Virus record (IMG/VR): IMGVR_UViG_3300043444_000155
Coordinates: 1-42,838 of that record
Length of the DNA stretch: 42,838 bases
DNA from: a virus
Strand: one strand, 5' to 3'
The notes under the pieces: generated by a model
The model's database searches: none
The model's input: the letters and a program-made list of their open reading frames with translations, nothing else
Told to the model about the DNA's origin: nothing
Part shown: one piece after another, positions 1-28,150 of the stretch
How positions within the stretch are numbered: the stretch's first letter is position 1
Layout of the letters: each line of letters begins with the position of its first letter
Made by a program: the position numbers and the translations under genes

Positions 1-1345
1 TGGCGTGACGCTTGACGAGGTCAGGTCGCACCGCTTCAACTTCTTGGGCAATCACACCGCGTTGCGGCATTCCCATCATTGTGTAGTCATAAATTCCCAC
101 GCCAATTGCGTGAGTGCCGACGCGCTTAATGTTTGACTTCAAGCGACGATCGGAGAACATAAACGCGGCAGATCCAAGCTGTGCGCCGGCGCCCAAGAGG
201 TTGCCGAATGCAGCGTTCTGCGCGTTGGCCGCGCCCAGCTGCGCGTCGTAACCCATCTGTGTCGCGCCCAGGATGTTGGGCGTCTCAGCGCGTTGCGCAG
301 CCGCGAACGATGGCATCTGAGGCATGCTGACTTGCTGGCCAGACAACAACGCGTTCATCTCGTTCAGAGACATGCCGCGGCGCTGTGCCTGCTCTGCGAT
401 CGCCTGCTGGCGGATCTGGTTCATCTGGTTCGCATACTGCTGGTTCAAGCCGTACTGCTGAGAGATCGCGCTGTTCTGCGCTCCCATGTTTGCAAGATCC
501 AACGCAGAAGCCTGGCCAAGAGCCTGGTTCTGAAACTGAGCTGCGCCCAAGTTCTGGTTGAAGTTCTGCTGCTGCGCTGCGTTGCCAAACTGACCGCCTT
601 GCAAGTCTTGATTGAACGCTTGCTGCGCTGTGCCCATCTGCATGTTGTACAGACGCTGGGCCTCGCTGCCGGCGCTGTCGAGCGCGTTGAATCGCTCGGC
701 TGCCTGACGCGAGTTCAATTCATTCAAAGCGCGGTTGTATGCCTCAGAGCCTTGCGTGAAGCCCTGGTTGGCCAACTTTGTCTCGAGCTGCTTTTGCTGG
801 TAGTCATAGACCGGCTGCATCTTCTGCATGAGCTGGTTTGCGACTGTGTCGCGGTAGCTCGAGTCGAACTGAGGCAGCGCTGGATTGTCAGCAGTGTTCA
901 AAGACGTCTGAGGGCCGCCAAAGTTGAAGCCCGTGCTCAAGCCTGCGGAGTAGTCCTTCACGCCCGTGTACAAATTGCCAGGCGCGTTGGCCGAGGTCAG
1001 CTGTGGCAGGTTCTGGTAGTCAAACGGCTTTGAGTATTCACTGGCCACGCGGCCCATGAAACTGTTGGCCAGATCACTGCGGCCACCTTGGATCGCGATT
1101 TGATCGTTCAGCGCATCTTGGAGACCAGGCGCAAGCGTGTTGTTCTGAGTCCACTCCGTGACCGCCTGGCCAGTGGCCGGATCAGTGACTGACCGCGTGC
1201 CCCAAGTTTGCGAACCAAACGGCGTGTTGATAACAGGCCGGTTGGCATAGTTTTGAATGTTGGTTAATTCTTTCGACGCTGCCGCCTGAGTATTGGCTGC
1301 GCCAATGTAATCAGGTGCTGCTGGTGCTGACGACTTTCCGCCCAT
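1..1345 (-). CDS. Gln-rich tail protein with C-terminal S74 chaperone, haplotype A, 3' end cut by window edge
   Basis: The gene reads from ATG 1345 (MGGKSSAPAAPDYIG) leftward off the window without a stop, giving at least 448 residues. It is Gln/Asn/Ala-rich, with a predicted helical middle, and ends in SDRRLKSNIKRVG and GVIAQEVE, the hallmarks of the peptidase S74 intramolecular chaperone (Ser-Lys dyad in SDRRLK). S74 domains trimerise the preceding protein and cleave themselves off. The homologue at 36806-38095 is 429 residues long; this copy has about 30 extra residues, mostly in the Gln-rich middle (a FNQDLQGGQFGNAAQQQ-type expansion), and lacks only about the last 11 residues. Its start overlaps the preceding GNAT-like gene by 35 nt. 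Likely virion tail role; the exact position in the particle is not known. Confidence 0.8.
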   Translation of the reverse strand, partial: MGGKSSAPAAPDYIGAANTQAAASKELTNIQNYANRPVINTPFGSQTWGTRSVTDPATGQAVTEWTQNNTLAPGLQDALNDQIAIQGGRSDLANSFMGRVASEYSKPFDYQNLPQLTSANAPGNLYTGVKDYSAGLSTGFNFGGPQTSLNTADNPALPQFDSSYRDTVANQLMQKMQPVYDYQQKQLETKLANQGFTQGSEAYNRALNELNSRQAAERFNALDSAGSEAQRLYNMQMGTAQQAFNQDLQGGQFGNAAQQQNFNQNLGAAQFQNQALGQASALDLANMGAQNSAISQQYGLNQQYANQMNQIRQQAIAEQAQRRGMSLNEMNALLSGQQVSMPQMPSFAAAQRAETPNILGATQMGYDAQLGAANAQNAAFGNLLGAGAQLGSAAFMFSDRRLKSNIKRVGTHAIGVGIYDYTMMGMPQRGVIAQEVEAVRPDLVKRHA

Positions 1346-1751
1346 GTTCCTTCTCCTTGATCCAGCGGCACTCGTCGTGCCTCATTTCAAACATCACACA
1401 ATCAACGGTCTCAGCGATCTGCCGAAACCCCAGCTTGCGGTTCATCCTTAACGCATCATCCAAGTGCTTTGGTGTGAGGCCGTAGACCGCTTCCTTGCCG
1501 CATGTAATCAGCGGATATTCGAAAGCCGCACGCCAAAGCTCACGGGTCAAACTGTGCGGGGTGTCAAATGCAACGTGCATCCAGCACCCCTTTTCTGTCC
1601 ACGCGTTGTATGCGACAGCAGCCCCAATTGTGCCGTCATCGCGCATCGCTGCTATCGCTCGCAGGTCACTACTCCAAGGCAGGTGAGTCCTCCGGTTCAT
1701 CCATTCCCAGATGACCGGATACTCGCCTGGCTTGTCAGTAGTGAGCCGCAT
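1311..1751 (-). CDS. GNAT-like acyltransferase of the tail module, haplotype A
   Basis: A 146-residue protein. The pattern (N-terminal KPGEYPVIWEWMN, central DGTIGAAVAYN, then GCWMHVAFD, and a late NRKLGFRQIAETVD) fits the compact GNAT-like fold often found as a single gene within podovirus tail modules. The NRKLGF segment resembles the C-terminal GNAT motif, in which a residue follows the acetyl-CoA strand. Substrate unknown. It starts 3 nt after the stop of the repeat protein, and its end overlaps the S74 gene by 35 nt because the final residues (KVVSTSST) run into that gene. The copy at 38088-38516 ends earlier and overlaps by only 8 nt. Family assignment is by pattern recognition, not a search. 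Confidence 0.65.
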   Translation of the reverse strand: MRLTTDKPGEYPVIWEWMNRRTHLPWSSDLRAIAAMRDDGTIGAAVAYNAWTEKGCWMHVAFDTPHSLTRELWRAAFEYPLITCGKEAVYGLTPKHLDDALRMNRKLGFRQIAETVDCVMFEMRHDECRWIKEKEHGRKVVSTSST

Positions 1752-1754
1752 GCG

Positions 1755-3077
1755 TCAAAACTCCAAACTTCCCCAGGTTTCATCAAAGACAGACTTTCCG
1801 CCGCCTGTCGTGCCAGCTCCGGGGGATTGCTGTTGGCTCAACCACTCGTTGTAGATCTCCAGCTCGCTCGGTTCCAAAAGCTCTGGATAGTCAAAAGTCT
1901 GGGACCTGCTGCCCTGATCGTCCAAAGCAATAGGACCGCTGACAACCTCAATCGTGACGTTGGGAACCTTTGGTCTTGTCAAATCCGAAATTTGATCTGC
2001 GGTCAAACCTGACGTAGCACCGCTGCTGTCCAGACCAGCAAACGAACTGTCTACTGAGGCAATTGCGTCGGTTATCGCGTCGCGAATAGAGGCGCCACCG
2101 CCAGACGATGGCTCTGTGATCGGGTCATCACTAGGCGACCCTGGGTCGCCTGGAGCGCCTGGTTCCGTAAAGGGATCACTTGGTCCGGTAGGGCCAACGT
2201 ATATAGGGTCATAAACAGGATCAAATACTGGATCCACAACGGGATCGACTGAAGGACCAACAACAGGGCCCACCGTAGGATCAACTACTGGATCCACAAC
2301 AGGATCTACAGAAGGATCAACAACGGGATCAACCCAAGGGTCCACCCATGGATCAACCCATGGATCAACCACAGGATCAACCACAGGATCAACCACAGGA
2401 TCAACCACAGGATCTACTGCAGGGTCCACAACGGGGTCAACAGCTGGCCCGTCTGGATCAACTACAGGATCAACCACGGGGCCGTCTGGATCTACAACGG
2501 GATCGACCACAGGGTCCACGACTGGATCTTCTGGATCAACAACGGGATCCTTTGGCGGTTCTGGATCGACAACAGGATCCTCTGGATCAACAACGGGATC
2601 TTCAGGATCTACCACCGGATCTTCAGGATCTACCACCGGATCTTCTGGATCAACGACAGGATCTTCAGGATCGACCACAGGATCCTCTGGACCAACCCAT
2701 GGATCAATCCACGGATCAACCCATGGATCTACCCATGGATCTACTGGGCCCGCAGGTTCACCGCCAGGCAGAACTACTTCTGGCGCGACATACTTTGAAG
2801 GAGTCAGGGCAGCTGGATCGTTTGCGCCGCGATAAGCGCGAGGGTTAAAGCTGAGAGGCGCTCCATTAGCGCCATTGGCGTACCGCGTGAAGCCAGGATT
2901 TGCAGGGCCTGAAATCTTGCGCAACGCGGAAATCAAATCTGAACGGCGCACGTCTGGCTTGGCAAACTCAGCGTTTGAACCTTGTCGCAAAAGAGAAGCG
3001 GCCAACCTTGGCGCTGAAGCAATCAGCTGTAGCGTCTCATCTGGTAGCCCGTAGGTTTCTTGCTTCACTGCCATCAC
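1755..3077 (-). CDS. Proline/aspartate repeat protein (VDP repeats), haplotype A
   Basis: A 440-residue protein with three parts. The N-terminus (GLPDETLQLIA) and the C-terminus (TFDYPELLEPSELE ending in ETWGSLEF) are conserved with the homologue at 38520-39557. Residues of roughly 105-300 consist of short units such as DPVVDP, DPEDPVVDP and DPWVDP. Such Pro/Asp-rich arrays probably form an extended, non-globular stalk. The other haplotype has a Thr/Gly-rich and acidic segment instead. The start overlaps the preceding stop by ATGA, so translation is probably coupled to the gp10-like gene. Located among tail genes, so a virion surface or tail role is inferred. No enzymatic motif is visible. 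Confidence 0.75.
   Translation of the reverse strand: MMAVKQETYGLPDETLQLIASAPRLAASLLRQGSNAEFAKPDVRRSDLISALRKISGPANPGFTRYANGANGAPLSFNPRAYRGANDPAALTPSKYVAPEVVLPGGEPAGPVDPWVDPWVDPWIDPWVGPEDPVVDPEDPVVDPEDPVVDPEDPVVDPEDPVVDPEDPVVDPEPPKDPVVDPEDPVVDPVVDPVVDPDGPVVDPVVDPDGPAVDPVVDPAVDPVVDPVVDPVVDPVVDPWVDPWVDPWVDPVVDPSVDPVVDPVVDPTVGPVVGPSVDPVVDPVFDPVYDPIYVGPTGPSDPFTEPGAPGDPGSPSDDPITEPSSGGGASIRDAITDAIASVDSSFAGLDSSGATSGLTADQISDLTRPKVPNVTIEVVSGPIALDDQGSRSQTFDYPELLEPSELEIYNEWLSQQQSPGAGTTGGGKSVFDETWGSLEF
2221..2760. repeat. GGATC-rich tandem repeat array
   Basis: The DNA behind the VDP array is an imperfect minisatellite with units such as GGATCAACCACA and GGATCTTCAGGATCTACC. Because Asp-Pro is encoded as GATCC(N), the tract carries more than 30 GATC sites in about 540 bp, where about two would be expected. 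It is prone to slippage and to assembly error, so the repeat number shown may not be exact. Confidence 0.85.
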
Positions 3078-4672
3078 ATCACTCCACCTAATTCAGTCAT
3101 CATGTGCGCCGATGTAAACACCGTCGCAGGTAGCCCGCGCACCTTCATGCGCATCGAGCCGTAGTAACCCAGGCCAGCCGTGCCGTACCAAGCCTGGTAG
3201 GTGTTCTGGCCAACCCAAGAGGCCGCGTTCCACACGCTGGCGTCCCAGATCCCGTTATCCGTCCCGTTGAAATACGGCGAGCCGCCCACGGGGCTCAAAT
3301 TGAACTGGGTGTTAATTTGCAGCTTCACCGAGGGCGCAGCTGTCGCGATAAAGACAGGGCGAACCATGCCGAACTTTTTGAGCTGCGCAGGAGTGCCAAA
3401 GTTTTGGAACGACGTCTGCATGTCGCCTTCGACGTAGTTACCGCCAGCGCCAACGCTGTCAACGCCGTCGCGATCGCCGTACAGGCCTTTGCAGGTAAAG
3501 CCGTCCTCAGTGCCAAAGAACAGCTCGCCATTGATCACGGCCACGCTGCGCATTGGCATGCCAACAAACTGACACCAGGCGCCTGTCGTGACGTTCATCG
3601 CAAACTGGCGATATGTGCCACCGTCTGCCGGCAGCTTGATCACCAGCACCTCGGACGAGGGCACGACAAAGACGTCGAAATACTTTTCGTCAATCAGCCT
3701 GCGCACCAGGGGCGCAAAGACTGACTGGATCTTGGACGCGGGGCCGATCTGCTGATCCTGGCTGTATTGGCCTGTGATCAGTCTGGACATGGGAACCAGG
3801 CCCAGCTCAGAGACGACCATCACGTCACCGCCAAACGGCGTGAAGTAGACGCCATGCCGAGGCACGGGGCCGACGTACCAGACGCCCTTGATCTGAAAGG
3901 TGGTCGCGCTGGTGGGGTCTGTGCCCTCCCAGACGGCCACGTCACCCTCTGTGCCGATCGCGACCAGGTAGTCGTCGATCGACAAGCCGGCATCCATCGT
4001 CCAGTTAATCAGCGCGGAGACGTAACCGCCGTTGCGGAGAATCGAGCCCATTGGGAACGATGTAGCCGTGCCAGTGATCGCGTCCACGGTGTCCATGTAG
4101 TAGACGTTCTGGTCTTCCAGGCATGTGAACCACACGCGGCGCTTCCACACGGCCACCGTGCGCACGCTGGTAGGTAAGCCGGTCACAGAGCGCTGCAGCC
4201 ATCCGCTGCCCGTGCTGTAAGTCCAGTAACCGGCGCCAGGCGAGACGGCCAGCAGGAACGTGTCCGCGGCAGTCGAGAACTGAGTGGTCCACCACTCGTC
4301 GTCGGTGCTCCCTGTGCCCGTTACAGCGAGCACAGGGGCGCCACCAGCGGTGACGTCGTAGATGTCTCCACCGACTGCAATAAATACTTTGTCGTCCGCG
4401 TTGTCGGGCGCCTTGTAGCTAAACACCGATTCAACAGGATCGCCAGGCAAGGTCACAGAGTCTGCGTAGACCTGATACCCCTTGCGGAGCTCGCAGCCCT
4501 GCTGACGCGGAATAAAGTTGGTCAGCACCAAAGCATCGGCAGGCGTCATGGCCGCGATCGGGTCGCGGTAGTTGAGGCCGCCTGTTGGCGCTGGAATGAC
4601 ACCGACCTGCGCAGTTTGTGCGGCGGCTGCCCTTCTAGGTGTCTTGAAAGGCTTGAGAGGCACCAATGGCAT
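3074..4672 (-). CDS. P22 gp10-like tail hub / packaged DNA stabilisation protein, haplotype A
   Basis: A 532-residue protein with the features of podovirus tail accessory factors of the P22 gp10 type. The N-terminus (APTGGLNYRDPIAAM) precedes a beta-rich body with repeated VW/WF strands (WKRRVWFT, VAVWEGTDP, KGVWYVGPVP), as expected for a beta-propeller hub that closes the portal channel after packaging. No signal peptide or coiled coil. It begins 2 nt after the adaptor gene and ends in an ATGA overlap with the repeat protein. The homologue at 39557-41152 is 531 residues and closely similar. The name rests on position and general pattern, so the exact family is moderately certain. Confidence 0.65.
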   Translation of the reverse strand: MPLVPLKPFKTPRRAAAAQTAQVGVIPAPTGGLNYRDPIAAMTPADALVLTNFIPRQQGCELRKGYQVYADSVTLPGDPVESVFSYKAPDNADDKVFIAVGGDIYDVTAGGAPVLAVTGTGSTDDEWWTTQFSTAADTFLLAVSPGAGYWTYSTGSGWLQRSVTGLPTSVRTVAVWKRRVWFTCLEDQNVYYMDTVDAITGTATSFPMGSILRNGGYVSALINWTMDAGLSIDDYLVAIGTEGDVAVWEGTDPTSATTFQIKGVWYVGPVPRHGVYFTPFGGDVMVVSELGLVPMSRLITGQYSQDQQIGPASKIQSVFAPLVRRLIDEKYFDVFVVPSSEVLVIKLPADGGTYRQFAMNVTTGAWCQFVGMPMRSVAVINGELFFGTEDGFTCKGLYGDRDGVDSVGAGGNYVEGDMQTSFQNFGTPAQLKKFGMVRPVFIATAAPSVKLQINTQFNLSPVGGSPYFNGTDNGIWDASVWNAASWVGQNTYQAWYGTAGLGYYGSMRMKVRGLPATVFTSAHMMTELGGVM

Positions 4673-4674
4673 GG

Positions 4675-5424
4675 TCAGCCTCCATAGCCAGTGTCTGGCG
4701 TGTTAACCAGGGGCTGGATGTAAGGGAAGCGGAAGTCGCGGGCCATTGACAGGACCGGAGCACCTTTTGCTGAACCCTTGCGGTTTTCAAATGAGAGCTG
4801 GAAGTCACGCATCGCTGCGCTAGAGTCCAGGCCCTTCATCTCGAGCCATTTCACGCGTGTGTACAGCGTGATCAATGTGGCATCGAGCAAAGCCACATCA
4901 CCGTTCTGTGTGATGCGGTTCTTGTAAAGAGTCGGATCGTTCTGATCGCGCACCCAGGCCTGAGACATGTAAAACACGTTCATCGTCTGAGGCGAGTTTG
5001 GAGGCGCGAGCACATAGATCATGTTGTCGCGCACCTGCCAGTAGAACGACAGCGTGGGCAACGTTGTGCGGATCAGCAGCTGCTGCCACATCTGTGGCGA
5101 GACAGGGCCGAGGGACGGGAACTGCGTCGTAGCGTTCCAGTTGGTTTGGTCGATCCAATCAAAGAAGTCCTCTGGCAGAGGGAATGCTTTTTCCTTCTGG
5201 CCGTTGGTGTCGGCAGTGATTGGGATCTGGTAATTCTTGATCAGCTCTTGCCAATCAAACATGGTGAGCAGCTCGATGCCGGCCATGTTGGCGGCCTGCA
5301 CGAACTGCTGCACCGCTGGATCTTCTGATCCAGCTGGATCGTTGGGGACGGGGAAGGCCACCATCGAGGCCACGTTCTGCACGATGGCCGAGAGGGTCGA
5401 TTCGTTAACGATTTGAAAGGCCAT
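4675..5424 (-). CDS. Head-tail adaptor (P22 gp4-like position), haplotype A
   Basis: A 249-residue protein beginning MAFQIVNESTLSAIVQNVASM and containing FPLPEDFFDWIDQTNW and VKWLEMKGLDSSAAMRDF. Helical at both ends with a short beta region, it fits the connector proteins that dock below the portal in podoviruses. Start ATG 5424 follows a GGAGTAGGGG-like ribosome-binding site. It lies between the coiled-coil protein and the gp10-like hub, which supports an adaptor role. The second copy at 41155-41910 differs mainly in the loop near residue 70 (TADTNGQKEK versus QSDPLIPNQRER). Confidence 0.6.
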   Translation of the reverse strand: MAFQIVNESTLSAIVQNVASMVAFPVPNDPAGSEDPAVQQFVQAANMAGIELLTMFDWQELIKNYQIPITADTNGQKEKAFPLPEDFFDWIDQTNWNATTQFPSLGPVSPQMWQQLLIRTTLPTLSFYWQVRDNMIYVLAPPNSPQTMNVFYMSQAWVRDQNDPTLYKNRITQNGDVALLDATLITLYTRVKWLEMKGLDSSAAMRDFQLSFENRKGSAKGAPVLSMARDFRFPYIQPLVNTPDTGYGG

Positions 5425-5437
5425 CCCCTACTCCTAT

Positions 5438-6052
5438 TTACTCAGCTTCAGCTGTTGCTGGCGCCACGTTGCGCTTGGCGGGCTTGGCGCTGGCTTGCAG
5501 TGCCTCGACCATCGTGCGCAGGTTCTCGATCTCCGCGTCGCGCTTTTGCAGCTCGGCGTTCATCTTCTCGATCGGGGCGTTGTTGGCCGCGACCTCCATA
5601 AATGCCTTGGCGCGTTGCTTGTCCGATTGAAAAGACATGAACTTGCCGCCCAAGTTGTCGTTCGCGTCTGCGAGCTGCTCAACCGTGACGATCTTGAAGA
5701 ACTTGTATTCCTCGACCTTGGACGCGTTCATGCCTGGCAAAGCGCTCAATGGAGTGCCGGTGACAGCTTCTTCCTGGCCAGCCTTCCATTTGTTGTATCG
5801 GTCCTGGAAGCGAAAGATGTCCTGCTGACTCAGAGGACGCTCAATCACAGAGGACTTGTCGCCCGGCACATGAATGCGGACGTAATCGACTTCCTCGTAC
5901 ACAGCGCGGCCAGCTTCACGGCTCTTGCCGGGTTGCATGACAGGCTTTCGGAAAAACTCGATGTAGAGCTTGTTATCGGCGGCAAAGCGGGTCTCATCCG
6001 GTTTGGAAAAGTCGCTGGGCTCGTCGAAGATGGTTGGTGTCGTGGGTTGCAT
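5438..6052 (-). CDS. Conserved phage structural-module protein with C-terminal coiled coil, haplotype A
   Basis: A 204-residue protein, MQPTTPTIFDEPSDFSKPDE. Its centre has a conserved VRIHVPGDKSSVIERPL segment followed by RFQDRYNKWKAG. Residues about 160-190 (IEKMNAELQKRDAEIENLR) form a clear coiled coil and the tail is Ala/Lys-rich. I recognise it as a conserved hypothetical of podovirus head-tail modules but not its function. Start ATG 6052 is preceded by AAGGTCAGAG. The homologue at 41923-42537 is nearly identical up to the coiled coil and diverges after it. Confidence 0.65.
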   Translation of the reverse strand: MQPTTPTIFDEPSDFSKPDETRFAADNKLYIEFFRKPVMQPGKSREAGRAVYEEVDYVRIHVPGDKSSVIERPLSQQDIFRFQDRYNKWKAGQEEAVTGTPLSALPGMNASKVEEYKFFKIVTVEQLADANDNLGGKFMSFQSDKQRAKAFMEVAANNAPIEKMNAELQKRDAEIENLRTMVEALQASAKPAKRNVAPATAEAE

Positions 6053-6073
6053 CTCTGACCTTTTTTATTTGAA

Positions 6074-6259
6074 TTACACGTTGGTCTCGATCACTAGATC
6101 GGTACCAGGGGAGCCACCGATGCGTGAGCCACCGATGGATGCACCGTCAACGCCTGTCAGGCCAATGCCTTCACAGACTGCGCCGGTGGATTGGGATGCA
6201 GCCGTGTCAACGACTGCGGGAGCTGCTGCGGAAACTGCGCCGCTAAATGTTGCTGCCAT
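6074..6259 (-). CDS. Small 61-residue protein downstream of the capsid gene, haplotype A
   Basis: Encodes MAATFSGAVSAAAPAVVDTA, followed by a Gly/Ser-rich GIGLTGVDGASIGGSRIGG stretch. It has a good ribosome-binding site (GGAAGGAAT, 6 nt upstream) and is conserved in both haplotypes (42559-42744). It sits immediately downstream of the capsid gene across a structured RNA element. Position and size suggest a minor capsid or decoration protein, but nothing in the sequence proves that. Confidence 0.6.
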   Translation of the reverse strand: MAATFSGAVSAAAPAVVDTAASQSTGAVCEGIGLTGVDGASIGGSRIGGSPGTDLVIETNV

Positions 6260-6276
6260 GATTTATTCCTTCCGTT

Positions 6277-6330
6277 AAAAAACCCGAGGGGTTGTGGGTC
6301 TCCCCAGTCCCTCGGGAAAGGGAGACCCAC
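6277..6330 (-). terminator. Post-capsid attenuator: two mutually exclusive hairpins and a U tract
   Basis: In the minus-strand RNA, GTGGGTCTCCC (6330-6320) pairs perfectly with GGGAGACCCAC (6304-6294). The loop of that hairpin holds CCCGAGGG (6316-6309), which pairs perfectly with CCCTCGGG (6290-6283), directly followed by six U (6282-6277). The two stems cannot easily coexist because the connecting loops are only 3-4 nt, so they look like an antiterminator/terminator pair or a strained pseudoknot. The element sits between the capsid stop and the 61-residue gene and is identical in the other haplotype. It probably limits transcription past the capsid gene. Confidence 0.7.
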
Positions 6331-6345
6331 GACGGCCCACCAAAA

Positions 6346-7317
6346 TTAGTTTTGGATACGACCCTGGAACTGAGCACCAGAGGTGGTCAGGTTGCCGGCC
6401 CAAGCCAAGATCTGAACTTCAGCGTCCTGGTTGATGGCATAGCGACGGTTGGGGCTCAAAGGAACCATGTTGCGGTCCTTGTGAGGGCGCCACTTGATGT
6501 ACTTGCTGTTGAGCATGAAGCCGGTGTTGGCAGGGCAATAGCCGCCAATACCGCCGTCCAGAACAACGTCAGCATCCATGAACTTCAATGTGGGGAAGCC
6601 CAAATTGCCAGTCTCAGGAGATGTGAAACGCTGCTGGGCTTGCAAGCTGCCCATGTAGTAAGACCAGTAGTTGTTGTCCAACACGACCAAGTCAGGACGG
6701 TCAGTGCCGCGGACCAACTGAGCCCAGAGTGCATTCAACGCAGCCTGCATAGTGGTTGCGCTGGGTGTCACGCTTTGAGCGCTAAAGTCGTACAGCTTGG
6801 AACGCCAGAAGGTCCAAGTTGCGCGGTTGATGCCACCGTAAGTGCCAGTTGTGGGGTCAGCAGGCACAGCGGCGTTCAAGCCGGTGACTTCTTTACCGCC
6901 AGAGCCAGTGCCGTCAGAGTAGATGGACTGGGCCAACTGGTTGACCATGGTGGACTCAGCCACGTTCAAGCGAGCTTCGAGCAAGTCGATGAACTGCTCT
7001 TTGCCGCTGTTTTGCAACATCTCGAGGCCAGACATCACGACGGGCACTGCGTACTGCTTGATTTGGAATTCAGCAGCAGAGATGACGTCTTGAGCAGCCA
7101 CAGGCAGCAAGTCGTAACCTGAGTAGAAACCGCCGTTCGCGTTTTCAGCGAATGAGAGTTCTTCAAAGATTGTGTTACCACCAGAGATGGTTTTGACGTT
7201 GCCGCGCTGGTTCAAGCGGGACAACAGGGCGTTATTTTTAGTAACGTTGTCAGCGATCTGACGTGTGCGCGACTGGATCGTCGTCGCAACAATATCCGAG
7301 ACATTCGGGAAGCTCAT
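6346..7317 (-). CDS. Major capsid protein
   Basis: A 323-residue protein, MSFPNVSDIVATTIQSRT, with the segment order typical of HK97-fold coat proteins: an N-terminal helical arm, FEELSFAENANGGFYSGYD, a long spine-like helix around residues 105-135, and a C-terminal beta-rich P-domain (DRPDLVVLDNNYW, GGYCPANTGFMLNS). It lies just after the scaffold gene and HNH insertion, and its start overlaps the HNH stop by ATGA. A GGAGA ribosome-binding site lies 8 nt upstream inside the HNH coding end. A strong attenuator follows its stop, consistent with high expression of this gene relative to those downstream. Confidence 0.85.
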   Translation of the reverse strand: MSFPNVSDIVATTIQSRTRQIADNVTKNNALLSRLNQRGNVKTISGGNTIFEELSFAENANGGFYSGYDLLPVAAQDVISAAEFQIKQYAVPVVMSGLEMLQNSGKEQFIDLLEARLNVAESTMVNQLAQSIYSDGTGSGGKEVTGLNAAVPADPTTGTYGGINRATWTFWRSKLYDFSAQSVTPSATTMQAALNALWAQLVRGTDRPDLVVLDNNYWSYYMGSLQAQQRFTSPETGNLGFPTLKFMDADVVLDGGIGGYCPANTGFMLNSKYIKWRPHKDRNMVPLSPNRRYAINQDAEVQILAWAGNLTTSGAQFQGRIQN

Positions 7318-14552: not shown

Positions 14553-15155
14553 TCACGGTGCATTAGCGTCTCCTACGGGCTCCTGCCCTGCCGTGCCTGC
14601 CGCCGCCGGCGACCCTGCCGCCGCTGGTACCGGATCAATAATCCGGTATGCCCCGCTCGAATCCCTTTGTAGATCAACAACTTGCGTGACTACGTCCGCA
14701 GGTTGTGCCACGGTTGTGCCAATCTGACGCGTGCCAAGCCATGAAAGCTGCACCTGCACGCCGCCTTCGACGTTCGCGTTGATCTGTGTCGGCAGCACCT
14801 TGCTCACCAGGCCCACGAACGCGGCCCGATCGCTCGAGGTGCCCTCGGCCAGCTTGGCCAAGTACTGAGCGCCGCCGACCTGGTCGAACGCCTCGAGCAC
14901 GGCCTCGCGCAGGTTGGTGAGCCGGTTCTTTGTGCCTGGTGCGCGCCCTGGGCCGGCCGGCACCGGCTGCCCGTTTTTCGGGCTCACCGCCGTCCCCTTG
15001 GGGCGCGGCTTGCCGTCCCTCGGATTCCAGGGCTTTTCCGGTCTTTGCGGCGTTTCTGACGCGCCAGGCGTTGAGTCAGCCTCAGCGGGCATCGCCGCCC
15101 TCAGCACAGCCTCTTGCAGCTGCTGACCGATGTCCTGTTGTTGGGTTTCAATCAT
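14553..15155 (-). CDS. Small terminase subunit-like protein
   Basis: A 200-residue protein. After a Pro-rich N-terminus, GPGRAPGTKNRLTNLREAVLEAFDQVGG leads to a helical LAKLAEGTSSDRAAFVGLVSKVLPTQI, the pattern of phage small-terminase/DNA-recognition proteins (DUF5681-like start, then a helical oligomerisation region). The C-terminus is Ala/Gly/Pro-rich. It lies two genes upstream of the large terminase, supporting the assignment. Start ATG 15155 follows GGGAGAATCGC. Confidence 0.7.
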   Translation of the reverse strand: MIETQQQDIGQQLQEAVLRAAMPAEADSTPGASETPQRPEKPWNPRDGKPRPKGTAVSPKNGQPVPAGPGRAPGTKNRLTNLREAVLEAFDQVGGAQYLAKLAEGTSSDRAAFVGLVSKVLPTQINANVEGGVQVQLSWLGTRQIGTTVAQPADVVTQVVDLQRDSSGAYRIIDPVPAAAGSPAAAGTAGQEPVGDANAP

Positions 15156-24742: not shown

Positions 24743-25705
24743 ATGGCAACGAATCAAAAACCTGTACTGCGCGGCGACACCTACTGGATCAACGTCCAGA
24801 TCGAGGGCAAGCGCCTGCGCAAGAGCCTGAACACGCAAGACGCCAAGCTGGCCGCTGAAGCGTTCACGCGTGAGCTGGCCGAGTTCTACCGCACGCGCAA
24901 GTTCAAGGAGATGCCCAAGAAGACCGTCAACGACGCGTTCGACAAGTGGCTGGACGAGCGCAGCGCCAAGCGCTCTATCGAGGACGACGAGCGCAAGGTC
25001 AAATTCCTCCGCGCCAAGATCGGCAGCACCCAGCTGTCGGAGCTCACCGTTTCCATGATCGAGGACGCCATGCCCCAGGGCGTGAGCCCGTCCACGCGTA
25101 ACCGCTACCGCGCCCTGATCCGCGCCATCCTGCGCCGGGCCATGCGCAAGTGGCAGTGGCTCAACAGCGTGCCCGCGATCGAGGAAGAGGACGAGCCCGA
25201 GGGATACACCGAGCACCTGACCAAGGACCAGGCCGAGCGCCTGATCGCGGAGCTGCCTGAGCGCTACCGCAAGCCCGTGCGCTTTGCCCTGCTGACCGGC
25301 CTTCGCCGCGCCAACGTGTTTGGCCTGACCTGGGACAAGGTCAACCTCGAGAGCGGCACGGTGGTGGTCGAGGCCAACACCGCCAAAGGCAAGCGCCGTT
25401 TCCTGGTCCCGCTGAACGCGAGCGCCAAGGCTTTGCTGGAGTCGGTGGAGGGGCGCGAGGGCCGCGTCTGGGGCGACGTGACCCACGTCTGGCAAAACGT
25501 CTGGGAGGACGCCTGCAAGCGGGCCGGCGTGAAGATCAAGTTCCACGGCCTGCGCCACACCTGGGCGACGTGGCATGCGGAAGCAGGCACGCCGCTTGAC
25601 GTGCTTCAGAAGCTGGGCGCGTGGGCGACGCACTCGATGGTGCTTCGCTACGCTCACCGGCCGGCCGACTACCTCGCGCAGGCTGCTGAGGCGGTTGCCT
25701 TGTGA
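24743..25705 (+). CDS. int: Tyrosine integrase
   Basis: A 320-residue tyrosine recombinase. After an N-terminal arm-binding domain (YWINVQIEGKRLRKSLN) and a core-binding domain, the catalytic residues are R188 (LTGLRRANVFGLTW), a Lys in AKGKRRFLV, H268 and R271 (HGLRHTW), W294 in the His/Trp position (LGAWATHS) and the nucleophile Y303 (LRYAH). The last codons run into an inverted repeat, and the attachment site lies 60 bp downstream, the standard int-attP arrangement. GAGGA precedes the start. Confidence 0.95.
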   Translation: MATNQKPVLRGDTYWINVQIEGKRLRKSLNTQDAKLAAEAFTRELAEFYRTRKFKEMPKKTVNDAFDKWLDERSAKRSIEDDERKVKFLRAKIGSTQLSELTVSMIEDAMPQGVSPSTRNRYRALIRAILRRAMRKWQWLNSVPAIEEEDEPEGYTEHLTKDQAERLIAELPERYRKPVRFALLTGLRRANVFGLTWDKVNLESGTVVVEANTAKGKRRFLVPLNASAKALLESVEGREGRVWGDVTHVWQNVWEDACKRAGVKIKFHGLRHTWATWHAEAGTPLDVLQKLGAWATHSMVLRYAHRPADYLAQAAEAVAL

Positions 25706-25726
25706 CAGTGGCACATTTCTGTCACA
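25701..25726. promoter_or_regulatory. Inverted repeat spanning the integrase stop, possible arm-type site
   Basis: TGTGACAG (25701-25708) and CTGTCACA (25719-25726) are perfect inverted copies around TGGCACATTT. The TGGCACAWTT motif recurs at 25894 and, in variant forms, at 26956 and 26967. Candidate integrase arm-type site and/or a transcript-end hairpin. Confidence 0.4.
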
Positions 25727-25764: not shown

Positions 25765-25821
25765 TGGTGCGAAAGGGGGGACTCGAACCCCCACGGGGGT
25801 AACCCGCCGGAACCTAAATCG
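25765..25821 (-). other. attP: Attachment site 1: 3' half of tRNA-Leu(UAG)
   Basis: The minus strand carries the 3' part of a tRNA-Leu from the anticodon loop (GATTTAGGTTCCGG, anticodon UAG), through a variable-arm hairpin (CGGG/CCCG) and a T stem-loop (GGTTCGAGTCC), to the encoded CCA. No 5' half is present, so this is an attachment site that would restore a host tRNA gene on integration. It lies 60 bp after the integrase gene. Confidence 0.85.
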
Positions 25822-25867
25822 AAAAAAGGAGGTAGCGAGTAGTTAAAAATCAATCACTTAAAACCGA

Positions 25868-25890
25868 CGGGGGCCCGGTATTGGCCCCCG
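25868..25890. terminator. GC-rich hairpin between attachment site 1 and the cassette
   Basis: CGGGGGCC (25868-25875) pairs with GGCCCCCG (25883-25890) around a 7-nt loop. No U tract on either strand, so its strength as a terminator is doubtful; it may structure the attachment region. Confidence 0.35.
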
Positions 25891-25940
25891 AATTGGCACA
25901 ATTATGTCACAGCAACACAGTAACAAAGAAGGACAGTTTT

Positions 25941-26522
25941 ATGAGCAACACACAACCCGAAGCCCTCCGGCTGATCCAGCACATGGACGACGAATGGCCC
26001 GAGGACTGGGACGGCCTGGCAATCCGCGCCGAACTGCGCCGCCTGCATACAGAAAATGAGTTCTTGAGGGGGCAGTCATTGGTCAAAGCCGGGCCGCCAT
26101 ACAAATTCCAGAGATTCGTTGCAGGGCAAAAGCGTGCCCAAGATGTTGTCATCGAGAAAGAGGAACAACTGCAACGCGCCGTCCTCAAGGCAGCAAGGAT
26201 TTGTCCTCCTGCGGAATTGACAGTGCTTGTCTACACCAGTCAACAGCCAGCCGAGCCTTACGATGAATTGACGCAGGCGCTAATCGAGCGCGATGAATAC
26301 CACGCCATTGCTGACGAACTTGCCGAAAAGATTGTGGAAATCACGGGCGCAGACATTGGCGAACACAGCAGCGCAAATAACCCGTGGCTGAAGGCGTTGG
26401 AGGTTGCGGACGATTGGCTCATGCGCCACAAAACGTTTGAGCCCGACTACTACGTCTACAACATTGACGGCGTGTATCGCTTGGCCGATCCGCAGCCAAC
26501 CATCCGCTGGGGGAATAAATGA
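25941..26522 (+). CDS. Cassette gene 1, hypothetical protein
   Basis: A 193-residue acidic protein, MSNTQPEALRLIQHMDDEWP. N-terminal helices (RAELRRLHTENEFLRG) and FVAGQKRAQDVVIEKEEQLQRAVLKAA suggest a coiled coil; the C-terminus is DPQPTIRWGNK. Start ATG 25941 follows AAGAAGGACAG. Not recognised. It lies between two attachment sites with cassette gene 2, outside the main recombination operon. Confidence 0.6.
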   Translation: MSNTQPEALRLIQHMDDEWPEDWDGLAIRAELRRLHTENEFLRGQSLVKAGPPYKFQRFVAGQKRAQDVVIEKEEQLQRAVLKAARICPPAELTVLVYTSQQPAEPYDELTQALIERDEYHAIADELAEKIVEITGADIGEHSSANNPWLKALEVADDWLMRHKTFEPDYYVYNIDGVYRLADPQPTIRWGNK

Positions 26523-26764
26523 AGCTAACCAAAACCCGCATCGGAAATTATCTGCGCCGCCACATGCTAGGCGACCAGCCGACATTTAGGAAAGGGTTCA
26601 AAGAAGGCGTTGCGTTTGCACAAAACAGCCAGCCCTTAACTGAAGATCAAATATTTGATTTGGAGAACAACTTGCCTGACGACGCAGTATCAGACAGGCG
26701 TTGGACAATCGAATTGGCGCGTGCCGTCGAAAGAGCGCACGGCATCGGCGCCGGATCTTTGTGA
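26519..26764 (+). CDS. Cassette gene 2, hypothetical protein
   Basis: An 81-residue protein, MKLTKTRIGNYLRRHMLG, with an acidic middle (TEDQIFDLENNLPDD) and WTIELARAVERAHGIG. Starts in an ATGA overlap with cassette gene 1, so both are co-translated. Helical; function not recognised. Confidence 0.55.
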   Translation: MKLTKTRIGNYLRRHMLGDQPTFRKGFKEGVAFAQNSQPLTEDQIFDLENNLPDDAVSDRRWTIELARAVERAHGIGAGSL

Positions 26765-26772
26765 CACAAAAA

Positions 26773-26804
26773 TGGCACACCCATCGGAGTTTCCGGGTGT
26801 GCCA
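26773..26804 (+). terminator. Hairpin ending the plus-strand unit
   Basis: TGGCACACCC (26773-26782) and GGGTGTGCCA (26795-26804) form a perfect 10-bp stem just downstream of cassette gene 2, with a further GGA/TCC pairing inside. No U tract, so it may be inefficient. Confidence 0.45.
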
Positions 26805-26818
26805 CAGTGGCAAGCTAT

Positions 26819-26875
26819 TGGTGCGAAAGGCGGGAGTCGAACCCGCACGGATTTTGTCCGCCGGAACCTAAATCG
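26819..26875 (-). other. Attachment site 2: second tRNA-Leu(UAG) 3' half
   Basis: Exactly the same 57-nt extent as site 1 but different sequence (9 of 57 bases differ). Variable arm CGGA/TCCG and T stem GCGGG/CCCGC still pair, so this was copied from another functional tRNA-Leu gene rather than mutated from site 1. No 5' tRNA half. The core (GATTTAGGTTCCGG and the CCA end) is identical to site 1. Confidence 0.85.
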
Positions 26876-26893: not shown

Positions 26894-26920
26894 AAAAAAA
26901 GGCCCTGAGCAATCAGGGCC
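26894..26920 (-). terminator. Rho-independent terminator of the lytic operon
   Basis: On the minus strand GGCCCTGA/TCAGGGCC form a perfect 8-bp stem with loop TTGC, followed by seven U (from A at 26894-26900). It lies 58 nt past the Rz stop, at the end of the long minus-strand unit and facing the plus-strand unit. Confidence 0.85.
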
Positions 26921-26977
26921 TTAAGTCTCAATGGCATCTACAAACAGCTCTCGCTGTGGCACGATTGTGGCACAAAT

Positions 26978-27448
26978 TCAGGGGTTCAGGCAGACGTTCC
27001 GAGCGTACCCCTGCAAGCCTACGACGATCGCTGCCAGGCGGTCAGCTTCTCCCGCCATTGCAACAAGAGTTGTCGCACAGCTTCCGAGTAGCTCCCGCTC
27101 GACGCCGGCTCGACCATCAGCTCTGAGGGTGGCGGCGGGATTTTTGGGACCTGGGGCGGCGATAGCGTAGAGCTCGTTGCGCAGCCCATCAAGCTCAGCG
27201 CGAGCGCGAGTGGCAGCACCAGCCGCCTGCCGTTTCTGAAGTACATATTGATCCTCCGCTTTCTGTCTTGCCGCGAGCAAGTCATGCTCCCGGCGCCTGG
27301 CCAGCTCCTCGGCCTTTTGCAGGCTCTGGGCGTAGGCCTGCTTCATCTGGGCCACCTTGGTGTCGTAGCGCCATTCCTGGACCTGCCACGCGCCCCAGAA
27401 CGCCATCACAGCGGAGACGAGCGCGGCGGCGACGTGTGTGTAGACCAT
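26978..27448 (-). CDS. Rz-type inner-membrane spanin subunit
   Basis: A 156-residue protein. An N-terminal membrane anchor (AAALVSAVMAFWGAW) is followed by a long periplasmic coiled coil (KQAYAQSLQKAEELARRREH) and an Ala-rich C-terminus ending in NVCLNP. This is the usual i-spanin layout. The o-spanin Rz1 is embedded in another frame inside it. Fuses the inner and outer membranes at the last lysis step. Starts one nt after the endolysin stop. Confidence 0.85.
   Translation of the reverse strand: MVYTHVAAALVSAVMAFWGAWQVQEWRYDTKVAQMKQAYAQSLQKAEELARRREHDLLAARQKAEDQYVLQKRQAAGAATRARAELDGLRNELYAIAAPGPKNPAATLRADGRAGVERELLGSCATTLVAMAGEADRLAAIVVGLQGYARNVCLNP
27019..27246 (-). CDS. Rz1-type outer-membrane lipoprotein, embedded in Rz
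   Basis: A 75-residue protein, MYFRNGRRLVLPLALALS, with signal and lipobox LSLMGC, then a Pro-rich PPQVPKIPPPPSE and a short helical C-terminus. ATG 27246 is chosen because it gives a correctly placed signal peptide. Lies wholly within the Rz gene in a different frame, the classical Rz1 arrangement. Confidence 0.9.
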   Translation of the reverse strand: MYFRNGRRLVLPLALALSLMGCATSSTLSPPQVPKIPPPPSELMVEPASSGSYSEAVRQLLLQWREKLTAWQRSS

Positions 27449-27449
27449 A

Positions 27450-27905
27450 TCAACCCCCTTGGCACTGCTGAAATTCGGCCTGGCGCCGTTTGGTGAGGCC
27501 GGCCAGGGGCTTTCCCTTGAACTTGTCCCAGCGCAGGATCTCCTTGCACGCGCCCTCGTAATCCTCGGTGTTCAGCTTGCGTACCAAGGTCGAGCCGCAG
27601 AACGCGGCGGGGCCGATGTTGTAGGTGAGGGACGTGTAGGCGTCGTATTCCCACTGGTGCAGCGGGACCCTGACGCAGCGCTTAATCGCGCCCTCGTATT
27701 GCTGGATGTCTTGCAGTGCTCGTTGCAGAGCTTTGGGCGGGGTGATGCTGTCGCCCATCTTCACGTTCTCGGTGGTCCCAAAGCCGATTGTCGGCTTGTC
27801 GCCAGGCACTGGGATGATGGCCTTGCTGGTGTAGTCCTCATGCAGGGCAATGCCCACCAGCGCGACCGCGCTCAGGGTGAGGCCAGCCAGCTGCGTGCGG
27901 TTCAT
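27450..27905 (-). CDS. SAR endolysin, GH24 lysozyme
   Basis: A 151-residue protein. The N-terminal hydrophobic stretch (LAGLTLSAVALVGIAL) looks like a signal-anchor-release segment; E23 (HEDY), D36 and T44/T45 (GDKPTIGFGTT) give the GH24 catalytic layout. CVRVPLHQWEYDAYTSL and YNIGPAAFCGSTL are typical. It overlaps the holin stop by one nt. The membrane anchor implies release and activation on collapse of the membrane potential. Confidence 0.9.
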   Translation of the reverse strand: MNRTQLAGLTLSAVALVGIALHEDYTSKAIIPVPGDKPTIGFGTTENVKMGDSITPPKALQRALQDIQQYEGAIKRCVRVPLHQWEYDAYTSLTYNIGPAAFCGSTLVRKLNTEDYEGACKEILRWDKFKGKPLAGLTKRRQAEFQQCQGG

Positions 27906-28150
27906 CAGTCGTCCCGCATGCGCCGCTCATGCTCGAGCTGTTGGCGCTGGTCTTCCTTGTGCCGGTAGTACCAGTTGATGGCAAAGCCGCCAACACCAAG
28001 AAGCAGACCAAAGATCACCCCGAACTCCGACGAGAGCATCCATCCCAAAACGCTTGCGCTTGCCCCCGTGTAGGTGGCTTTACTGCCAAAGGCGGCCAGT
28101 GTTGCGTCGACTGTGGCTTGTGTTTCCTGCTGCACGGGGCGCTCCTTCAT
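27905..28150 (-). CDS. Holin, probably pinholin-like
   Basis: An 81-residue protein. Residues about 27-42 (YTGASASVLGWMLSS) and 44-63 (FGVIFGLLLGVGGFAINWYY) are two hydrophobic segments, the first weaker, followed by a charged tail (RHKEDQRQQLEHERRMRDD). This is the layout of P21-type pinholins, matching the SAR endolysin next to it. Directly abuts the preceding gene's stop. Confidence 0.8.
   Translation of the reverse strand: MKERPVQQETQATVDATLAAFGSKATYTGASASVLGWMLSSEFGVIFGLLLGVGGFAINWYYRHKEDQRQQLEHERRMRDD

Follow-up and report, generated by a model that had tools for sequence, protein, structure and literature searches.

Cis-mobilizable elements (CIMEs) have lost the genes for integration and transfer, retain their att sites, and can be moved by a neighboring element after accretion (PMC5704250). 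CIMEs and tandem accretion were first described for the ICESt1-related elements of Streptococcus thermophilus (Pavlovic 2004 and Bellanger 2011, cited in PMC5704250). In Dehalococcoides, islands at ssrA that lack an integration module are bounded by direct repeats of the 3' end of the RNA gene and have been proposed to be cis-mobilizable (PMC3146451). The small cassette described here lies within a phage genome and carries no integration gene of its own. It stands in tandem with an integrase-encoding element, the phage itself, whose integrase gene adjoins the first of two flanking sites, and by sequence both of these putative att sites combine a tRNA core with arm pairs of the type found in the attP sites of related phages. 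A literature search found no natural phage genome reported to carry two attP sites, which falls short of proving that none exists.

The phage, here called U, was analyzed in a window comprising the whole 42,838 nucleotides of IMG/VR record IMGVR_UViG_3300043444_000155, where the composite locus reads integrase, attP-like site 1, two-gene cassette, attP-like site 2, and lysis genes. Each site contains the 3' half of a tRNA-Leu(UAG) gene on the minus strand, at 25765 to 25821 for site 1, where it extends from the anticodon loop to CCA, and at 26819 to 26875 for site 2, which represents another allele. The initial annotation had described two 57-nt halves in the same orientation, 1,054 bp apart, and self-comparison of the window recovers them as described, with this spacing from start to start and with 48 of 57 positions identical (84.2%, E ~3e-10). 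No other such repeat was found by this comparison, apart from the duplicated flanks of the window and the internal repeats of structural genes. Two sites enclosing two genes are a real feature of this genome, beyond what chance would supply. The window contains no complete tRNA, and a search for RNA families near both sites returned sub-threshold, terminator-like matches alone.

The nine differences between the halves, and the pairing said to survive them, are confirmed by alignment of the two sites. All nine are confined to the variable and T arms, and most are compensatory: the T stems of the two sites read GGGGG/CCCCC versus GCGGG/CCCGC, and the variable stems CGGG/CCCG versus CGGA/TCCG. 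The strands that would pair with the missing 5' half (the 3' strand of the anticodon stem, the 3' strand of the acceptor stem, and CCA) are the same at both sites. Since the changes within the arms are paired, each half appears to derive from a functional tRNA gene. The further claim that two host genes were the source holds up in part. Site 1 shows 2 mismatches in 57, a variable-loop change and another at the outer edge, against the 3' half of a chromosomal tRNA-Leu(UAG) gene in one Burkholderiales genome, called by ARAGORN as tRNA-Leu(tag), and it is also close to the tRNA-Leu(UAG) genes of eight further genomes from the same Burkholderiales family. Its core thus approximates the 3' part of a tRNA gene, as expected of an attP that restores the gene upon integration. 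Site 2, at up to three mismatches, matched none of 300 genomes of the order Burkholderiales. The halves seem to descend from two distinct, functional tRNA alleles, with a candidate host group for site 1 alone.

One way to explain two alleles in one genome is selection for a dual attP, with the two versions restoring tRNA-Leu in hosts that carry different alleles and the cassette being a bystander. As every difference lies in an arm that pairs with itself, either half could complete a tRNA together with the conserved 5' half, but by the same logic a single half would serve both hosts and the second would bring little gain. The absence of any host with the site 2 allele among the genomes searched also weighs against this explanation, which we consider most improbable.

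Two identical records of the locus bear on whether it could be an artifact. Positions 1 to 6.4k of the window are homologous to 36.8 to 42.8k (71 to 81% identical in the self-comparison), and a 71,149-bp record, IMGVR_UViG_3300047554_000338, holds window positions 6573 to 42838 and 1 to 6337 at 100% identity, together with the rest of a second phage, V, and the integrase of that phage, so that the record contains two integrases. Homologous ends and a record with two integrases would be compatible with two prophages in tandem, the two halves marking their boundary, but U and V each hold one gene set, V uses tRNA-Ser rather than tRNA-Leu, and the relative G003 exists as a complete single unit of 36,166 bp, terminally redundant over 127 bp, with a U-like layout. 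Moreover, one exact 1,007-bp repeat (6227 to 7233) carries both phage-to-phage joins, V to U in the window and U to V in the 71-kb record; it is a probable assembly junction outside the cassette and far from any att site. Contig ends lie exactly 127 bp from branch points, as in de Bruijn assembly. On the strength of the 71-kb record and the exact repeat, tandem prophages were dropped as an account of the window, and we give them a negligible chance.

The window ends exactly 127 bp into the 1,007-bp repeat, and its start shares exactly 127 bp with the end of a 27,630-bp contig that contains V alone and is 99.996% identical to it, as expected for edges in a de Bruijn graph (k = 127). The contig is probably chimeric, with approximately its first 6.2 kb belonging to the co-occurring phage V and joined to U through the repeat. 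The simplest reading would be that U (~36.5 kb, about 6227 to 42711) and V (~34.9 kb) were merged in assembly, and exact identity over 1 kb between phages otherwise 70 to 80% alike suggests recent recombination between them. The V part also contains, at 2205 to 2746, a tandemly repetitive coding sequence with several copies 65 to 76% identical in a structural gene. The cassette locus lies ~19 kb from the chimeric junction and is 100% identical in the 71-kb record, and the longest exact match between sites 1 and 2 is 18 bp, which makes misassembly driven by a repeat very unlikely there. The concern raised in the initial annotation that site 2 could be an assembly chimera is thus answered against.

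That annotation had also suggested looking among relatives for a phage without the cassette, and had regarded fixation of both sites in all relatives as fatal to its reading. V and G003, the two relatives at hand, are both single-site phages lacking the cassette, in which the order is integrase, one tRNA half, minus-strand terminator, and lysis genes, although the half is from tRNA-Ser rather than tRNA-Leu. The double-site arrangement itself is seen in one phage only, in two records perhaps from related samples.

The anatomy of these relatives allowed the surroundings of each tRNA-Leu half to be compared with ordinary attP sites. The integrase of U (24743 to 25705, plus strand, 320 amino acids; Pfam PF00589, E 1.9e-25; PHROG_1 integrase, E 3e-58) is 57% identical to that of V and 52% identical to that of G003, stops 60 bp to the left of site 1, and is taken to be the recombinase for both sites. 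In V and G003, the core is flanked on each side by one pair of (T/G/C)G(G/A)CAC(A/G) repeats with an 11-bp period. When a matrix trained on the four arm pairs of V and G003 alone was run over both strands of 36.3 kb of U, four of the five best positions proved to be the flanks of sites 1 and 2 (25709, 25894, 26762, and 26957), with scores of 16.1 to 18.1. The best score in 20 shuffles was 16.1, which two of the four U arm scores (16.12) only equal, and the split test was strong but not fully blind, as the motif had first been spotted by eye in U and V jointly before training and test sequences were separated. A count made independently of the matrix placed 12 of the 31 TGKCACA words in the 71-kb record within ~120 bp of its three cores. 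The remaining top position, TGGCACA-N4-TGGCACA at 14704 to 14721 on the minus strand, lies within a coding region and has counterparts at 43225 in V and 1761 in G003; it could be an extra binding site or reflect a coding constraint.

The predicted arm sites, all on the plus strand, give each core one pair on either side. At site 1, a P-side pair (25709 to 25726) and a P'-side pair (25894 to 25911) both read TGGCACA-N4-TGTCACA, the latter forming the left end of the cassette. At site 2, the P-side pair, TGACACA-N4-TGGCACA (26762 to 26779), forms the right end of the cassette, and the P'-side pair, TGGCACG-N4-TGGCACA (26957 to 26974), lies just before the lysis module of U (spanin, endolysin, and holin by Pfam and PHROG searches; 26978 to 28150, minus strand), which normally follows attP. 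The distance from left arm to core is 56 bp at site 1 and 57 bp at site 2, versus 72 and 77 bp in V and G003, and that from core to right arm is 73 and 82 bp, a difference of 9 bp between the two sites, versus 72 and 71 bp. A hairpin occupies the interval between core and right arm at all four sites. In site 2, it is the late-operon (lysis) terminator (26899 to 26922, minus strand), similar in sequence to the V hairpin and identically placed, while in site 1 a terminator-like hairpin (25868 to 25890, minus strand) is positioned like those of V, G003, and site 2. On the basis of the four arm pairs, the similar geometry, and the hairpins, each half is by its anatomy part of a complete attP-like site with predicted arms, a feature that the initial annotation did not see and that is new here. 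This completeness makes recombination between site 1 and site 2 plausible.

As claimed, two genes lie between the halves, in open reading frames at 25941 to 26522 and 26519 to 26764 on the plus strand. X1, of 193 amino acids, is a mosaic phage accessory protein (phrog_6628, E 4e-9) with homologues in three other loci (L039 to L041), and X2, of 81 amino acids, has a start that overlaps the X1 stop and gave no Pfam or PHROG match. In L039, an ordinary phage early region, a homologue of the X2 N terminus comes immediately after that of X1, and the C-terminal part of X2 has weak relatives in many viral contigs. Neither protein, and they are the only ones encoded by the cassette, matched a recombinase or integrase family in Pfam or PHROG. 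Phage satellites are recognized by an integrase of their own or by packaging or interference genes that act on a helper; the cassette does not show these traits, as X1 and X2 gave no integrase, packaging, or defense match. A defense or toxin-antitoxin pair was considered and rejected, with no PADLOC hit and no useful Pfam match, as was a copy of early genes of U, V, or G003, for which tblastn returned nothing significant. X1 had no tblastn match in 50,697 phage records and none in 250 Burkholderiales genomes, the latter a search run without a positive control.

From left to right, the ~1.05-kb cassette consists of the minus-strand hairpin, the P' arm, X1, X2, and the P arm, which the X2 stop codon overlaps, comparable to the integrase stop just before the P arm of U itself. 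The hairpin at the left end reads on the minus strand beside two plus-strand genes, an arrangement that fits the end of the late operon of another phage. A different source for this DNA would be aberrant excision, in which site 1 or site 2 is an old chromosomal att remnant and the cassette is host or island DNA that never belonged to a phage. The GC content of the cassette, 53.2% against 58.1% for U, is compatible with such an origin, as are the arrays of old att halves found at chromosomal tRNA loci with relatives of the U integrase. However, arm-type repeats at both ends of the cassette would not be expected in plain chromosomal DNA, and X1 and X2 resemble the accessory genes found in early regions of phages (L039 and L040); we consider this source very unlikely.

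These observations point, we think with reasonable probability, to a model in which the cassette is a decayed, integrase-less prophage or satellite that became accreted to U, was excised along with it, and can still be recombined by the U integrase. A second prophage or satellite using the same tRNA-Leu(UAG) site would have integrated in tandem with U and then lost its integrase and nearly everything else, keeping its ends: the core, late-operon terminator, and P' arm on the left, and the P arm and core on the right. Recombination by the U integrase between the outermost sites would then have excised U and the remnant together, yielding a composite phage genome. Tyrosine integrases recombine directly repeated att sites by excision. 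As both sites retain a core and arms, the U integrase should be able to recombine them with each other or to integrate through either. In the first case, the cassette would be released as a 1,054-bp circle, leaving a ~35.4-kb phage with one attP. In the second, integration through site 1 or site 2 would put the cassette at one prophage end, left or right, from which it might remain in the tRNA gene or be picked up by a later phage. The order of these events, recognition of the sites by the integrase, and present-day activity are all inferred.

The initial annotation proposed that the cassette was carried by att-site recombination. Arm-type repeats flanking both halves and the cassette-less genomes of V and G003 bear this out as far as anatomy is concerned, and mobility by the phage integrase is plausible from the sequence. 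The viral collection contained no sequence of an empty site, an excision junction, or a transferred state, and no second phage with the same tRNA-Leu half; the cassette was not found alone, so the case for activity rests on anatomy. A parent phage with ends of the cassette type was likewise not found, although the ends themselves (a P' arm with minus-strand hairpin, and a P arm) are of phage type. A tRNA-Leu half with arms was encountered in one other locus (L260), the end of a different phage adjoining a full tRNA-Leu; there, at 50 to 290, the half is followed by GGCACA-type repeats just before a full second tRNA-Leu gene, in what looks like a prophage end. Among the matches listed for a loose tRNA-Leu(UAG) pattern, the sole locus with two (L187, 5095 to 6295) has a truncated tRNA-Leu copy 1.15 kb from a full gene, around a metallophosphoesterase-like gene. 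It belongs to a virus with its own tRNA array and was rejected as an att pair.

It is also possible, though in our judgment unlikely, that the same tandem integration and co-excision left a frozen scar, with one site now dead and the cassette a plain part of the phage genome. The cassette is identical in both records, the viral collection offers no contig with an empty site, and site 2 lacks the third right-arm repeat present in V and G003, all of which a scar would accommodate. A long-dead site would be expected to lose its arms and core, and in this sequence neither the four arm pairs nor the two cores have decayed, which speaks against a scar.

The accretion process on which the preferred model depends is visible in chromosomal relatives of the U integrase, as read from their sequences. 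In a Betaproteobacteria metagenome-assembled genome (L055), an element with an integrase and a Rep_trans replication gene at tRNA-Asn adjoins a 2-kb element (1906 to 3950) that carries a HEPN/nucleotidyltransferase pair (PADLOC candidate PDC-M05) and only a fragment of an integrase; tRNA-Asn halves (1906 and 3903) bound it, and the full gene lies at 7034. Separately, in a Thiobacillus metagenome-assembled genome (L050, 2171 to 3724), downstream of an integrase come a tRNA 3' half, two small genes, and then, 1.48 kb beyond the first copy, a second 72-nt copy (93%) of core and right-side sequence; this is possibly a second att-bounded segment of two genes.

Temperate phages gain accessory genes mostly by recombination, by a route that is unknown. 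If the model is correct, a cassette bounded by two complete attP-like sites would offer a defined and reversible route, driven by integrase, by which genes are gained and lost at the boundary between integrase and lysis genes, and it would connect island accretion, as modeled for bacterial chromosomes, with the evolution of phages. What the model predicts is simple, namely a 1,054-bp circle together with a phage that has a single attP. We regard as doubtful the broader notion of a regular class of tiny mobile units, integrase-less att cassettes each flanked by P' and P arms of its own, that travel from one temperate phage to another on the integrases of the phages themselves, akin to gene cassettes that use an integron integrase.

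Set beside known systems, the locus shares its parts with the ordinary attP regions of V and G003, which have a tyrosine integrase, arm pairs, core, terminator, and lysis genes with identical order and similar spacing. Those phages have one site with nothing between integrase and terminator, whereas in U the unit is duplicated, with differing sequence, and encloses two genes. Like the Dehalococcoides ssrA islands, the cassette is integrase-less and bounded by direct repeats of the 3' end of an RNA gene, but those islands depend on a serine recombinase, target tmRNA, and form a chromosomal array outside phage genomes. The nearest counterpart on record is the CIME: both are without an integrase, are bounded by att sites, putative ones in U, at the 3' end of a tRNA or other gene, and have a neighbor whose integrase could excise the two together or each separately. 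The CIMEs described so far are islands of the chromosome that travel with conjugative or mobilizable elements, in contrast to a 1-kb cassette inside a temperate phage, between its integrase and lysis genes. By its anatomy, then, the cassette appears to work like a CIME, but one housed within a phage genome.
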